DNA of 64,000 nt, from positions 124,001 to 188,000 of the forward strand of contig NZ_CP122379.1 in assembly GCF_029814825.1 (NCBI RefSeq), read 5' to 3'. The notes under the pieces are model-generated. The model saw only the letters and a list, made by a program, of their open reading frames with translations, made no database searches and had not been told where the DNA came from. This DNA is from Aequorivita marisscotiae. Lineage in GTDB: Bacteria; Bacteroidota; Bacteroidia; Flavobacteriales; Flavobacteriaceae. Every line of letters starts with the position of its first letter. The first letter of the stretch is position 1. This document shows positions 6,427-55,430 of the stretch, in pieces. The position numbers and the translations under genes are program-made.

Positions 6427-6976
6427 AATTGAAAATTGTTTGGATATTTTAAAAAAGGGAGGGTTAATTCTTTATCCAACTGACACTGTTTGGGGCATTG
6501 GCTGCGATGCCACTAATCATGAGGCTGTTGAAAGAATATTTCAACTTAAAAAACGAAGCGATAAAAAGTCGCTAATCTGCTTGGTAAGCGATTTTAGAAT
6601 GCTGAACGAATATATTGAAAACGTACCCGAAGTGGCATACGATATTTTAAAATATGCCAAAAAGCCCACGACAATTATTTACGACGACCCAATTCGCGTA
6701 GCGGAAAATTTAATTGCCGAAGACAATTCGCTTGCAGTGCGGGTTCCAAAAGACGATTTTTGCAAAACATTGATCAAGAAATTACGGCATCCATTGGTCT
6801 CAACTTCCGCAAATATAAGCGGCACAAATACGCCGCAAAGTTTTAAGGAAATAGACCCTTTAATTTTGGAAGGCGTGGACTATGTTGTAAATTTGCATCA
6901 CGAAAAAAAATCGGGAAAACCCTCGGCTATTATTAAGTTGAAAAACGATGGTTCCGTAAAGGTTATTCGGAAGTAA
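6416..6976 (+). CDS. L-threonylcarbamoyladenylate synthase (Sua5/YrdC/YciO family)
   Basis: This is a 186-residue single YrdC domain. GGLILYPTDTVWGIGCDA near the N-terminus and the KKRSDKKSL basic stretch (about 41-49) are family hallmarks, followed by VRVPKDDF and LVSTSANISGT in the C-terminal half. The enzyme makes threonylcarbamoyl-AMP from threonine, bicarbonate and ATP for the t6A37 modification of ANN-decoding tRNAs. The length fits the short TsaC form without the Sua5 extension. It overlaps the preceding glycosyltransferase gene by 11 nt. Confidence 0.9.
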   Translation: MKTEIENCLDILKKGGLILYPTDTVWGIGCDATNHEAVERIFQLKKRSDKKSLICLVSDFRMLNEYIENVPEVAYDILKYAKKPTTIIYDDPIRVAENLIAEDNSLAVRVPKDDFCKTLIKKLRHPLVSTSANISGTNTPQSFKEIDPLILEGVDYVVNLHHEKKSGKPSAIIKLKNDGSVKVIRK

Positions 6977-6979
6977 GTA

Positions 6980-7446
6980 TTGCCACGAATTCACGATTTT
7001 TTTTTTAAACAACACTCTAATACAATGGCAAATATTATATATAAAGAGGATAGCTATGCTATTGTCGGCTGTATGTTTGACGTGTATAATGAATTGGGTA
7101 GTGGTTTTTCCGAAATTGTTTATAAAGATGCTATTGAATATGAATTTAAACAAAAGGATATTCCATTCGAAAGAGAAAAGCAATATTCAGTAAAATATAA
7201 AGACATTACTTTACCACATAAATTTTATGCAGATTTTGTGGTTATGGATAAAATAATTTTGGAAGTTAAATCTGTTGAAATGCTTAACGATAAACATTTA
7301 GCTCAATGCATTAACTATTTAAAAGTTTCAGAATGTAAGCTGGCACTTTTAGTGAATTTCCAAAAAGAATTTTTAGACCATAAGAGAATTGTCCTATAAA
7401 TAAAAATAATAAAAGCCCACCACACCATATTAGTGTATTCGTGGCA
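6980..7446. mobile_element. GxxExxY element bounded by inverted terminal repeats
   Basis: The left end (from 6980) reads TTGCCACGAATTCACG followed by a T-run and AAA. The right end (about 7431-7446) reads GTGTATTCGTGGCAA, an inverted near-copy. The only cargo is the GxxExxY gene at 7025-7399. The left end begins 4 nt after the tsaC stop, and the right end runs into the start of the CCA-adding enzyme gene. A cargo-free version with the same ends is present at 17573-17626. Mobility is inferred from the shared ends; no target duplication is evident. Confidence 0.6.
7025..7399 (+). CDS. GxxExxY family protein (PD-(D/E)XK-like fold)
   Basis: ATG at 7025 gives 124 residues. An upstream TTG at 6980 lies inside the repeat and is unlikely to be used. 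The naming motif is intact (GFSEIVY), preceded by VGCMFDVYNELGSG. The acidic pair with ADFVVMDKIILEVKSVE resembles the D...ExK active site of the PD-(D/E)XK nuclease superfamily, to which this family (PDDEXK_3) is assigned. The function is not established. The gene is sandwiched between inverted repeats (6980-7008 and 7426-7450). A broken relative lies at 17711-18091. Confidence 0.85.
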   Translation: MANIIYKEDSYAIVGCMFDVYNELGSGFSEIVYKDAIEYEFKQKDIPFEREKQYSVKYKDITLPHKFYADFVVMDKIILEVKSVEMLNDKHLAQCINYLKVSECKLALLVNFQKEFLDHKRIVL

Positions 7447-7459
7447 AAAAAAAATATTA

Positions 7460-8884
7460 GTGGTCAACCCATCCTACATATCAGCATTACAAAACCCAAT
7501 CTTTAGAACCATTTCCAAAGCCGCTTCAAACTTAAACTTGGAGAGCTATGTAATTGGGGGCTATGTGCGCGACTATATTTTAAATCGCGGTGAAGCCAAG
7601 GATATTGATATTGTTGCTGTAGGAAGTGGCATTGAACTGGCACAGGAAGTTTCAAGATTGCTTCCGGGAAAACCAAAAGTTTCCGTCTTTAAAACCTATG
7701 GCACGGCCATGCTGAAAAGTGGGGGGATAGAGCTTGAGTTTGTAGGCGCACGTAAGGAATCGTATTCCGAAGAAAGCAGAAATCCTGCTGTGGAAAACGG
7801 CAGTTTGGCTGACGATCAAAACCGAAGGGATTTTACCATTAACGCCCTAGCCTTGAGTCTGAATGATGAAAATTTTGGTAAGCTATTAGATCCTTTTAAC
7901 GGAATTGCCGATCTGGAAAACCATATAATCCGAACTCCGCTCGATCCAGATATAACGTATAGCGACGACCCATTGCGGATGTTGCGGGCCATTCGTTTTG
8001 CAACCCAATTAAATTTTATTATTGAAAAAGATTCCTTGGCAGCTATTAAGCGAAATGCCAAAAGAATAAAAATAATTTCAAAGGAACGAATTGTTGACGA
8101 GCTGAATAAAATGCTGCTCGCCGATGTACCTTCAAAAGGTTTCGCTCTTTTGCACAAAACGGGTTTATTACCCTATATACTACCAGAATTGGTGGCATTA
8201 CAGGGCATTGACGAAAAAGAAGGGCAAACCCATAAAGACAATTTTTGGCATACACTGGAGGTGGTCGATAATATTTCAAAAGCAACGGACGACCTTTGGC
8301 TTCGATGGGCTGCATTGCTTCACGATATCGGAAAAGCGCCAACAAAAAGATTCGACAAAAAATTGGGGTGGACCTTTCACACACACGAGTTTGTTGGTGC
8401 AAAAATGGTTTACAAACTTTTTAAAAGGCTGAAAATGCCGCTGAACGATAAAATGAAGTTCGTTCAGAAAATGGTTTTAATGAGCTCCCGTCCCATCGCC
8501 TTAGCCAGCGATGTAACCGATAGTGCCGTGCGTCGCTTAATTTTTGACGCAGGTGAAAATGTAGAAGATCTAATGACTCTTTGCGAGGCCGATATTACTA
8601 CGAAAAATCCGAAAAAGTTTAAAAAATATCACGCCAATTTTCAATTGGTGCGCGATAAAATTGTAGAGGTTGAAGAACGAGACCATGTTCGCAACTTTCA
8701 GCCCCCAGTAAGCGGTGAAGAAATCATGAAAACCTTTAATTTAAAACCTTCGCGCGAGATCGGACTTATTAAAGACGCCATAAAAGAAGCAATTCTCGAA
8801 GGAGAAATCCCAAATGAATACGAAGCGGCAAAGGAGTTTATGTTGAAGAAAGGGGCTGAAATTGGATTGACGATTGATGATTAA
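7460..8884 (+). CDS. cca: CCA tRNA nucleotidyltransferase with HD domain
   Basis: The nucleotidyltransferase head carries VIGGYVRDYIL and the catalytic DIDIVAVG, then the RRDFTINALAL motif and an ERIVDEL region. A C-terminal HD domain follows, with LLHDIGKAP near residue 290. The enzyme adds or repairs the 3'-CCA of tRNAs. The start is uncertain: GTG 7460 or GTG 7433. The latter lies inside the right-hand repeat of the GxxExxY element, and the expected ATG just before the conserved ALQNPIF is missing, suggesting the repeat landed on the original start. The 3' end reads into a short GATTGACGATTG repeat. Confidence 0.88.
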   Translation: MVNPSYISALQNPIFRTISKAASNLNLESYVIGGYVRDYILNRGEAKDIDIVAVGSGIELAQEVSRLLPGKPKVSVFKTYGTAMLKSGGIELEFVGARKESYSEESRNPAVENGSLADDQNRRDFTINALALSLNDENFGKLLDPFNGIADLENHIIRTPLDPDITYSDDPLRMLRAIRFATQLNFIIEKDSLAAIKRNAKRIKIISKERIVDELNKMLLADVPSKGFALLHKTGLLPYILPELVALQGIDEKEGQTHKDNFWHTLEVVDNISKATDDLWLRWAALLHDIGKAPTKRFDKKLGWTFHTHEFVGAKMVYKLFKRLKMPLNDKMKFVQKMVLMSSRPIALASDVTDSAVRRLIFDAGENVEDLMTLCEADITTKNPKKFKKYHANFQLVRDKIVEVEERDHVRNFQPPVSGEEIMKTFNLKPSREIGLIKDAIKEAILEGEIPNEYEAAKEFMLKKGAEIGLTIDD

Positions 8885-8977: not shown

Positions 8978-9002
8978 AATTAGTGAATTCGTGGTAAAAA
9001 AA
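8978..9002 (+). repeat. Solo TTCGTGG-type repeat overlapping the COX15/CtaA start
   Basis: TTAGTGAATTCGTGGTAAAA is a near copy of the GxxExxY-element end (GTGTATTCGTGGCAAAA). The GTG at 8991 inside it is the apparent start codon of the heme A synthase. Confidence 0.6.
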
Positions 9003-16508: not shown

Positions 16509-16827
16509 TTTTCCGGATCGCTCATTTGTTTAATTCACTAAAAACATAGAGCAGCCGTACAGACTCGCAAAAGATATTACCCCTTCGAATTCACGAATTA
16601 TTGATATATTCGTGTGTTTTAATTGAATACTTTAGTGAGAAGAAAGACTCTAGACTGTAGAATAGAGAGAAGAGAATAGAGACTAAAGAGGCGTGGAACA
16701 CTTATAGTTAGGAGCTCAAATATTTGTGGCAAAAAACATATAGCTCAACAGCATTCGTGTATTCGTGGCAAAAAACATTCAGCCGAGAAAAATAGTGGTT
16801 GTTGTATCAAAATTTTAATCCTATTAA
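16509..16827. repeat. 319-bp gene-free stretch with several solo repeats
   Basis: No coding sequence is recognised. It contains a hairpin form of the TTCGTGG-type repeat (GAATTCACGAAT at about 16588-16599 with ATTCGTGTG at about 16609-16617), an A/G-rich tract of AGAATAGAG-type units (about 16640-16690), a TATTTGTGGCAAAAAA copy at 16721-16736 and a GCATTCGTGTATTCGTGGCA copy at 16751-16770. The lptB ATG follows 52 nt later, so its promoter must lie in or near these repeats. Confidence 0.6.
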
Positions 16828-17572: not shown

Positions 17573-17626
17573 TTGCCACTAATTCACAGTTTTTTTTTAA
17601 ATAGTATTCGTGTATTCGTGGCAGTT
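17573..17626. mobile_element. 54-bp cargo-free mini-element with GxxExxY-element ends
   Basis: The left end TTGCCACTAATTCAC plus a T-run and AAA matches the left end of the element at 6980. The right end GTGTATTCGTGGCA is its inverted partner (12 of 14 terminal bases pair). It contains no gene. It looks like a MITE-style internal-deletion version of the GxxExxY element, inserted 4 nt after the lptB stop. Confidence 0.6.
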
Positions 17627-17660: not shown

Positions 17661-18220
17661 TTAACCACAAAGAACACAATGGTTTTCACAAAGAACACAA
17701 AGTTTTAATTTTACAGGTCTCCATTTATAACTCTTTTAATACCCTGTTTTAATAGACTTACGTTAAAATTTATAAGAAGTCCTAACTTAAAACCGCCAAG
17801 TCTCATATAAGTCAGAGTCTGTGCTAAATGAACATCCTTTAAAGATTCCACACTTTTTATTTCTATAATGACTTTATTTTCGACTAATAAATCAATTCGA
17901 TAACCAATTTCTAGTTTTACATCTTCAAAGATTAGAAGCATCGGTTTTTGTTTCTCAACATTTATTCCCTTCAGCTTTAATTTATAAAATAAGCATTCTT
18001 GGCAGGCAGATTCTAATAAGCCGGGCCCAAGTGCCTTATGAACTTCCAATGCACAGCCTATAGTTTTATTAGCTATTTATTTTTCGGTCATTCTAAATAA
18101 AATAAATTCTTAATGCAACAACTATGGCCACAATGGTTTTCACAAAGAACTCACTGATCTGCGTATAATAAATCCTTCTTTGTGCACTCTGTGACTTCTT
18201 AGTGTACTTTGTGGTTAATA
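17661..18220. mobile_element. Second GxxExxY element, CACAAAG-type terminal repeats
   Basis: The left end TTAACCACAAAGAACAC (17661-17677), followed by a second CACAAAGAACACAAAG unit, is inverted relative to the right end. On the minus strand the right end reads TTAACCACAAAGTACAC, ending near 18218. The cargo is a broken GxxExxY gene. Extra internal copies lie at 18128-18150 and 18176-18217, and a tandem copy of the right end is at 18249-18293. Confidence 0.6.
17711..18091 (-). pseudogene. GxxExxY family gene with N-terminal nonsense codon
   Basis: Reading from ATG 18091 the product begins MTEK, then TAA at 18079-18077, then continues in frame with the expected IANKTIGCALEVHKALGPG. One G-to-T change (GAA to TAA) explains the stop. 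The naming motif is altered as well: GLLESAC instead of GLLESAY. The D...ExK-like active-site region (IDLLVENKVIIEIKSVE) remains. Translation from TTG 18049 would drop the conserved IGCA segment. Most likely it is a recently inactivated copy. Flanking repeats match in inverted orientation. Confidence 0.75.
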
Positions 18221-18248: not shown

Positions 18249-18293
18249 CTTCTTTGTGCACTCTGTGGCATCTTAGTGTACTTTGTGGTTAAA
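18249..18293 (+). repeat. Extra CTTTGTG-type repeat overlapping the pssA stop
   Basis: TTCTTTGTGCACTCTGTGGC and then TAGTGTACTTTGTGGTTAA repeat the right end of the preceding element. On the minus strand it encodes the last residues (FNHKVH) and the TAA stop of pssA. Confidence 0.65.
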
Positions 18294-20350: not shown

Positions 20351-20372
20351 ATTCGTGTATTCGTGGTGAAAA
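20351..20372 (+). repeat. Solo TTCGTGG repeat supplying a start codon
   Basis: ATTCGTGTATTCGTGG matches the GxxExxY-element end, followed by TGAAAAA. The GTG-GTG pair at 20363-20368 within it gives the only plausible start of the DUF4105 gene. Confidence 0.6.
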
Positions 20373-23445: not shown

Positions 23446-23639
23446 TCCAGTTTTTCTTTGGGAGTGTTCATTAAAGTGTGTCATCGGTTAAAAATCGTTT
23501 AGAATAAAAGTAAAAATTCTTGCGCCCTGACTATCAAATTTTACAATTAATTCGGGCACTTTTGGTACGTTTCAAAGCATTTGTATTGTTGCCATTCGTC
23601 CTTTACTTTTAAGTAAAGTTGTATGGAGATAAGTCAAAA
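23446..23639. other. Spacer between heptamer arrays, no intact gene
   Basis: This AT-rich segment contains a perfect hairpin, CTTTACTT-TT-AAGTAAAG, at 23601-23618. It may include the frameshifted 3' part of the four-helix-bundle pseudogene; one minus frame reads NVPKVPELIVKFDSQGARIF before a stop, which I cannot assign. No convincing promoter is visible for the gene at 21872-23263. Confidence 0.4.
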
Positions 23640-23833
23640 AAATTACTGAAATCCTATTTGTATTTTCTTCTACCATAAACCTCTATAATATTATTCTAAA
23701 CACGCTTTGACGACCTTCCAATTTAGCTGCCCTACTCATAAAGTTCAAATTTTGGCATTGTCAGCGACATTTGATGAACTTCTATTGCATACTCCAAAGC
23801 CAAATAATAAATATCCAAATCTTCATAATAATC
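23640..23833 (-). pseudogene. S23/four-helix-bundle protein relic with four in-frame stops
   Basis: On the minus strand one frame reads YYEDLDIYYLALEYAIEV, then PKFELYE, stop, GS, stop, IGRSSKRV, stop, NNIIEVYGRRKYK, stop, DF. This follows the S23 (23S rRNA intervening-sequence) protein pattern, where ELYEEGSQIRRSSK and KNNIVEGYGRRRYK are expected. Each stop sits where one base change from Glu, Gln or Lys codons would create it. The start codon is missing because the heptamer array runs into the 5' end. It is flanked by inverted TCGGTTG arrays. Confidence 0.75.
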
Positions 23834-55308: not shown

Positions 55309-55430
55309 TACAATTATTTTGTTTCAAAAATAGCGAAAACTATTGGGATTTGTGATTCGTGGATTCGGGATTCGTGGATTCGGGATTTGTTAATTGGTTG
55401 ATTCGTTAATTCGTGGATTCGGAAACATTT
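55309..55430. repeat. Gene-free stretch with GATTCGTGGATTCGG direct repeats
   Basis: About 55346-55422 holds tandem-like GATTCGTGGATTCGGG units with decayed copies (GATTCGTTAATTCGTGG). The units resemble the TTCGTGG repeat family seen elsewhere. No coding sequence or promoter for yaaA was recognised. Confidence 0.55.

Follow-up and report, generated by a model that had tools for sequence, protein, structure and literature searches.

A small gene of the GxxExxY family lies between tsaC and cca in Aequorivita marisscotiae, enclosed by short inverted repeats, and this arrangement raises the question of whether the gene and the repeats belong together as one genetic unit. The window considered here is the whole 64-kb stretch of DNA that contains this locus. 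A sequence-only reading of it had proposed a self-contained module of repeats and a nuclease-like protein, which moves or copies its own ends.

The GxxExxY gene, its ends and related words in the genome

The GxxExxY gene occupies positions 7025-7399 of the plus strand and comprises 124 codons. In profile searches, it matches TIGR04256 with 135.9 bits (curated cut-off 35) and PF13366, PDDEXK_3, with 126.7 bits (curated cut-off 22). The left end, TTGCCACGAATTCAC (6980-6994, plus strand), is a CACGAAT-type word pointing to the gene, and the right end, GTGTATTCGTGGCAA (7433-7447, minus strand), is its inverted partner. The two arms are complementary at 14 of 15 positions, with one mismatch. The inverted ends originally described around the gene are real and are built on CACGAAT. 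Taken alone, this inverted repeat is modest: among 3000 dinucleotide shuffles, 18 reach its arm-pair score, as do 6 of 3000 places drawn at random from the window. The word itself is clearly interspersed in the window: CACGAATWCAC, with at most one mismatch, has 11 matches against 1.23 expected, and none of 100 shuffles contains as many.

The packing between the neighboring genes is tight, with some correction of the distances first given. The tsaC stop codon lies at 6974-6976, which leaves a gap of 3 nt to the left arm rather than 4 nt. The gap of 0 nt to cca is obtained only with the mechanical open reading frame start at 7433, while comparison with relatives places the cca start probably at GTG 7460, 12 nt past the right arm. 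This candidate start codon (7460-7462) lies within a repeat-like word, both here and in several congeners (e.g. ATTCGTGgta); other congeners have ATG.

The protein carries a set of residues that is invariant in 56 sequences, namely GxGxxE, D, ExK, QxxxY and NF, including D70, E80, K82, Q94 and Y98. The D, ExK and QxxxY elements are presumably the motifs of RecB/Cas4-like PD-(D/E)XK nucleases, and these residues fit the PD-(D/E)XK-like core suggested earlier. GxxExxY is thus a putative nuclease of the RecB/Cas4-like PD-(D/E)XK type. One relative shows a weak match to a Cas4b profile over the D-ExK-QxxxY stretch (E 0.0008), and the window protein itself has no match to this profile. A search of solved structures by sequence returned no relative, the only two matches having E values of 0.48 and 0.66, and libraries of defence and phage proteins gave nothing decisive. 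Profile searches with the window protein also gave no match to S23 (TIGR02436), the second small protein family considered below.

Additional copies of the CACGAAT word are present elsewhere in the window. A compact gene-less hairpin, TTGCCACTAATTCAC...GTGTATTCGTGGCA (17573-17623), lies directly after lptB. In 11 other Aequorivita genomes, the first 170 nt after lptB lack this hairpin; two of the 11, G013 and G026, have a CACGAAT left-type array there. Solitary right ends with the same word occur on the minus strand at 8983-8995, abutting the start of the next open reading frame (presumably heme A synthase), at 16753-16769, upstream of lptB, and at 20351-20367, abutting another open reading frame start.

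A second GxxExxY gene, of a different subfamily, is located at 17726-18076 on the minus strand. It is accompanied by a CACAAAG-type word array on one side (17663-17702, plus strand) and by the inverted partner on the opposite side (18176-18218, minus strand), beyond which an extra copy of the same type lies at about 18250-18292. The genome encodes four GxxExxY genes with a mutual identity of 33-57%, and their ends all differ, being of CACGAAT, CACAAAG, CGCAAAG and CACGGATT-like types. Thirteen S23 matches in the same genome (L029-L041) lie between still different arrays. When each left flank is compared with its own inverted right flank and with those of the 16 other loci, its own partner is the best match at 3 of the 4 GxxExxY and 9 of the 13 S23 loci; the arrays of L037 are direct rather than inverted. 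Two degenerate stretches of the window may be mentioned here, namely an S23 gene remnant at 23633-23809, which has four in-frame stops and adjoins GTTGTCTG/CAACAGAC arrays, and a degenerate array of ATTCGTGG/ATTCGGG-like words at 55340-55425.

Word grammar and protein clade across GxxExxY loci

The association between GxxExxY genes and repeated words extends far beyond this locus, as the earlier reading had anticipated. The words follow the pattern CRCNRAK with a start-to-start spacing of 8 to 11 nt, and a dyad is here a pair of these heptamers separated by 1-4 nt and located no more than 300 nt from the gene. Dyads are found at 76 of 80 loci from a database scan, compared with 2 of 145 single outer control windows. 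The pattern was read from these scan loci, and therefore this count is not an independent test and the other sets, some loci of which may overlap the scan, weigh more. Dyads are present at 39 of 46 genus loci (outer control windows 8 of 92), at 28 of 29 loci of a phylum sample (3 of 57), and at 12 of 14 loci from the genomes behind Planctomycetota, Nitrospirae, Desantisbacteria, Chlorobiota and Ignavibacteria records, including 7 of the 8 that were not in the first set. The S23 loci served as a negative control, with CRCNRAK dyads at 1 of 39 in the genus and 1 of 30 in the phylum. The genus set represents 46 of at least 79 GxxExxY matches (51 taken, 5 too short), and its S23 counterpart is a sample from a longer list (41 taken, 2 too short). 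The phylum set consists of the best-scoring loci, mostly one per genome, with 30 S23 loci and 29 of 30 GxxExxY loci (L331 was too short).

The strict inverted arrangement of dyads, in which the left array points toward the gene and the right array is inverted, occurs at 50 of 80 scan, 35 of 46 genus and 19 of 29 phylum loci. Several GxxExxY loci carry strong direct arrays (e.g. L131 and L134). Five of the seven dyad-less genus loci (L186, L189, L191, L192 and L194) have, by eye, a related NCGAATT word. The inverted arms of a locus exceed the 95th percentile of mismatched arms at 41 of 79 scan loci (L148 being left out), 15 of 46 genus loci and 15 of 29 phylum loci, and this test is weaker for GxxExxY because other loci share the words. 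The corresponding numbers for S23 are 30 of 39 in the genus and 18 of 30 in the phylum.

GxxExxY itself is widespread, being present in 26 of 28 genus genomes and 74 of 148 phylum-sample genomes. The search of phages gave no GxxExxY match, and viral contigs contain one distant locus. Among eight plasmid loci with 200-nt flanks, strict dyads are found at two (L265 and L267). Inspection by eye adds inverted ends at L266 and L269, a left array at L268 and direct copies at L272, with doubtful words at L271 and none at L270. At L268, on a Sphingomonas plasmid, fabD and fabG are the annotated neighbors on either side of the GxxExxY gene, at distances of 33 and 2 nt. At L078 and L079, nested ends are visible by eye, with an outer right end before the element and a left end after it, leading into the next gene.

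The S23 loci possess a grammar of their own. In the 130 nt beside the gene, the autocorrelation of GxxExxY flanks peaks at lags 9-10, whereas that of S23 flanks peaks at 7, then at 14 and 21. The lag-7 and lag-14 peaks of S23 are missing from outer windows; the lag-21 excess is also found there. AG is the most enriched dinucleotide at lag 7 in S23 flanks, with 246 occurrences versus 42 in outer windows when runs of N are set aside. The two grammars are thus CRCNRAK words with a period of 8-11 for GxxExxY and AG-rich words with a period of 7 for S23.

Within the GxxExxY family, similarity of words and spacing rises with protein identity. The correlation is r 0.652 over 126 loci and 0.519 over 103 loci when the tsaC-cca clade is removed; it is 0.774 inside the genus (38 loci) and 0.503 in other genera without the tsaC-cca clade (67 loci). 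In none of these four tests does any of 2000 permutations reach the observed value. All locus pairs with a homologous flanking open reading frame in common were removed from the tests, and 7 duplicate-genome loci and 23 of 149 loci without CRCNRAK arrays were left out. An earlier value of r 0.67 is superseded, because its filter relied on DNA similarity alone and left tsaC-cca loci from different genera in the test as if they were unrelated. An equivalent dependence of S23 words on protein clade is weak (r 0.191, against a permutation maximum of 0.179). Four S23 pairs with 73-76% identity have word scores of 17-23, equal to background, and the pair L214/L216, with 77% identity, scores 72. The idea that one residue decides between CAC and CGC words was also rejected, as none separates the 8 and 4 proteins in the one close contrast available.

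The unit itself is visible in the CACAGAG/CGCAGAG subfamily, in which DNA similarity between unrelated sites is limited to about 450 nt, corresponding to the gene and both arrays. The same confined similarity is seen between two copies in G001 and between two in G021. In this one subfamily, the ends therefore bound the unit at unrelated sites, in the manner of an inverted-repeat insertion sequence. Together with the dependence of word and spacing on protein clade, these copies bear out the notion of a self-contained unit of repeats and gene. A better match of each locus's own arms than of its clade mates' arms was sought at 12 loci of one subfamily and was not found, the mean rank being 5.75 with an expectation of 5.5. 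This result favors recognition of the clade word over pairing of the arms.

The tsaC-cca site and the gene-less hairpins

The occupancy of the tsaC-cca junction varies among 27 testable genomes of the genus, the present one included and G017, whose junction falls at a contig border, left out. The gene is present in 14 of them and is interrupted by stops or splits in 4 (G004, G005, G007 and G015). The empty site that the sequence-only reading called for does exist, since in 5 of the 27 tsaC and cca are separated by only 5-12 nt. The remaining 8 have other spacers, and some of these contain gene-less arrays of other words; G001, for instance, has a CACAAAG hairpin and G012 a CGCAAAG one. The family contributes another 28 genomes, out of 98 that have a cca match. 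A motif search places the gene upstream of cca in 2 of these 28, and tsaC is recognized beside cca by a simple pattern in 10. In G262, a stretch upstream of cca resembles, by eye, the last third of the gene.

A recent arrival of the gene is not supported by its closest relatives. In 25 of 27 database-scan loci at least 59% identical to the window protein, tsaC and cca lie alongside; at least 4 of these loci are from congeners, and several genera are represented. Their ends are CACGAAT in Aequorivita and mostly CGCAAATT or CGCAGATT in Flavobacterium. It follows that the site is old and favored and that, with the gene remaining in place, the two ends changed in concert; many empty sites may thus reflect loss of the gene. 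The favored interpretation is that the window copy is an old occupant with many rounds of retention, loss and perhaps replacement behind it, rather than the product of a recent jump. A Flavobacterium-like tsaC-GxxExxY-cca arrangement is also seen on a contig assigned to Limnohabitans (Pseudomonadota; L121), which is probably mis-binned.

Phylogenetic analysis divides the Aequorivita proteins at this site into two lineages, one of which groups with other genera (99/93), and Aequorivita cca forms one clade at 100/99. None of 200 bootstrap trees unites the Aequorivita tsaC-cca proteins in one clade, but a single origin is not rejected by the AU test (p 0.121), and therefore the two lineages at one site are suggestive only. 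Repeated entry into the tsaC-cca site, in other words homing, is possible on the basis of these trees. An inspection of junctions and hairpins by eye revealed no consistent target-site duplication or defined insertion site, and no excision product was seen. The gene at this position seems to be under purifying selection, with dN/dS of about 0.04 (0.03-0.12), a value that comes from few usable pairs, 6 of 28 being unsaturated, from 8 of 11 loci.

Gene-less copies of the ends are scattered through the genus. Each of 28 congeneric genomes contains between 1 and 86 matches to the pattern CCACGAATNCACGAAT when at most one mismatch is allowed and gene ends are counted, and the reversed CCACGAATNCACGAAT pattern, used as a control, has 0 or 1. 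Many gene-less hairpins of the end type are thus found per genome, as in REP/RAYT systems. CACGAAT dyads number one each in G009 and G012 and 55 in G022, a genome without any GxxExxY gene, so the hairpins persist, or spread, without the gene. These dyads are commoner where the tsaC-cca gene is present (median 36 versus 7.5, Mann-Whitney p 0.002; p 0.011 with intact genes only), in a test that ignores kinship among genomes and counts G017, with its junction at a contig end, as lacking the gene. A similar tie between CACAAAG copy number and the matching gene is not significant (p 0.14).

Twenty hairpins picked for paired arms illustrate the structure of these copies. Ten match a strict pattern of 40-48 nt, and in 8 of these the variable base is paired too; the rest are off by a few bases. 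The 20 gene-less hairpins have a T fraction of 0.57 in the 8 nt after them and an A fraction of 0.51 in the 8 nt before them, compared with 0.32 and 0.33, respectively, elsewhere at the same loci. Two pairs of apparently orthologous hairpins in two species (L246/L263 and L258/L264) show, by eye, paired changes in both arms.

A possible selfish module and its relation to known systems

The generality of the association, the clade-matched words and the scattered gene-less hairpins together indicate that the gene and its ends form a module. The proposal that this is a small selfish module, working like REP/RAYT but with a different enzyme, is given about an even chance of being correct. In such a module, the GxxExxY protein would recognize its own end sequence in the word array, and the putative nuclease would cut at the array, possibly as single-stranded hairpin DNA during replication. 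Cutting would let the element be copied or kept between genes, and gene-less hairpins could be copied or kept in trans by the same protein. End cleavage, copying and movement by the GxxExxY protein are thus predicted activities.

Several rival explanations have to be weighed against this proposal. The arrays could be host intergenic hairpins, such as bidirectional terminators, with the gene as a passenger in their loops at a tolerated site and without any action on them. The A-rich stretch before and the T-rich stretch after the gene-less hairpins would be natural for such structures, some hairpins seem to be kept at orthologous places with paired arm changes (the two cases noted by eye), and inverted arrays enclose both GxxExxY and S23 genes. 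This explanation is nevertheless unlikely, as random entry into host hairpins would not yield words and spacing that track protein clade across unrelated sites and genera, nor two grammars with periods of 7 and 9-10 in the same genomes. The possibility that the repeats are unrelated to an old, vertically inherited gene, and are associated with it without function, draws on the 25 of 27 closest loci at tsaC-cca and on the apparent purifying selection, with its few usable pairs. It was already disfavored and is very improbable, because the association holds in several phyla, with almost no dyads in control windows and with S23 as a negative control, and because subfamily copies occupy unrelated sites.

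An element acting at the level of RNA, like the intervening sequences of 23S rRNA, has also to be considered. Its arms would pair in the transcript and be cleaved, either by RNase III or by the element's own protein, so that insertion within an operon would be harmless. In accordance with this, some elements lie between co-directional genes, namely tsaC and cca, fabD and fabG on the Sphingomonas plasmid, and radA and the gene that follows it on a plasmid of Bacteroides. Moreover, S23 is described as the protein of rRNA intervening sequences, whose complementary ends are cut by RNase III (PMC4990558). Such a mechanism is distinctly unlikely for GxxExxY in view of the strong direct arrays at several loci, the subfamily in which the arms of a locus show no closer match to each other than to arms of clade mates, and the window, anywhere in which no Rfam family reaches its gathering score.

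The link between gene and word has a broader meaning. For GxxExxY, a common family without an assigned function, the tight link to a DNA word offers a likely substrate, so its activity is directly testable. The same link could explain where a group of so far unexplained intergenic hairpins comes from. In addition, the comparison with S23 suggests that two unrelated proteins have reached the same lifestyle with different word grammars. A more speculative extension, which is held only tentatively, is that 'word-array' elements form a general class. Small proteins of different families (PD-(D/E)XK GxxExxY, four-helix S23 and perhaps others), unrelated to one another, would each write, recognize and spread their own word grammar, becoming a source of much of the intergenic repeat landscape in Bacteroidota and other phyla. 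A search of the open-licence literature by family names, identifiers and six typical words found no description of a link between GxxExxY and repeats.

Known systems resemble the proposed module in different respects. I-Ssp6803I is a PD-(D/E)XK homing endonuclease, encoded by a small nuclease gene recurring at one site. GxxExxY resembles such endonucleases in this recurrence, but it has neither intron nor intein, and its arrays belong to the element. Cyanobacterial STRR repeats are comparable intergenic heptamer arrays with a scattered distribution. TAACTGA heptamer repeats, found in Beggiatoaceae, cyanobacteria and Bacteroidetes, are likewise intergenic and scattered, and in one genome most of them directly precede start codons (PMC4679880). 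These arrays share the intergenic heptamer organization of GxxExxY ends but are direct and consist of a single word, and the text consulted draws no link to GxxExxY or S23.

The 23S rRNA intervening sequence is similar in its overall design. Both are elements of about 430 nt with one small open reading frame between complementary ends; in the rRNA element this frame encodes the S23 protein and the ends are cut by RNase III (PMC4990558). In contrast, the GxxExxY protein is not the S23 four-helix protein (TIGR02436), its ends are made of repeated words, and the element considered here lies between tsaC and cca rather than in an rRNA helix.

The parallel on which the proposal is modeled is that of REP and REPIN palindromes with the RAYT (TnpA-REP) transposase, known together as 'REPtrons' (PMC3733652, PMC3116915, PMC8266576). 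Both systems share many short, gene-less extragenic hairpins, and in both an enzyme acting on nucleic acids is encoded between such copies or between inverted repeats. The enzymes differ, GxxExxY belonging to PF13366 (PD-(D/E)XK) and RAYT being a HUH tyrosine transposase of the IS200/IS605 group, and so do the ends, which are spaced heptamer words in one case and GTAG palindromes in the other. The GxxExxY module has no HUH transposase and is therefore not classed as a REPtron, but it may work like one.
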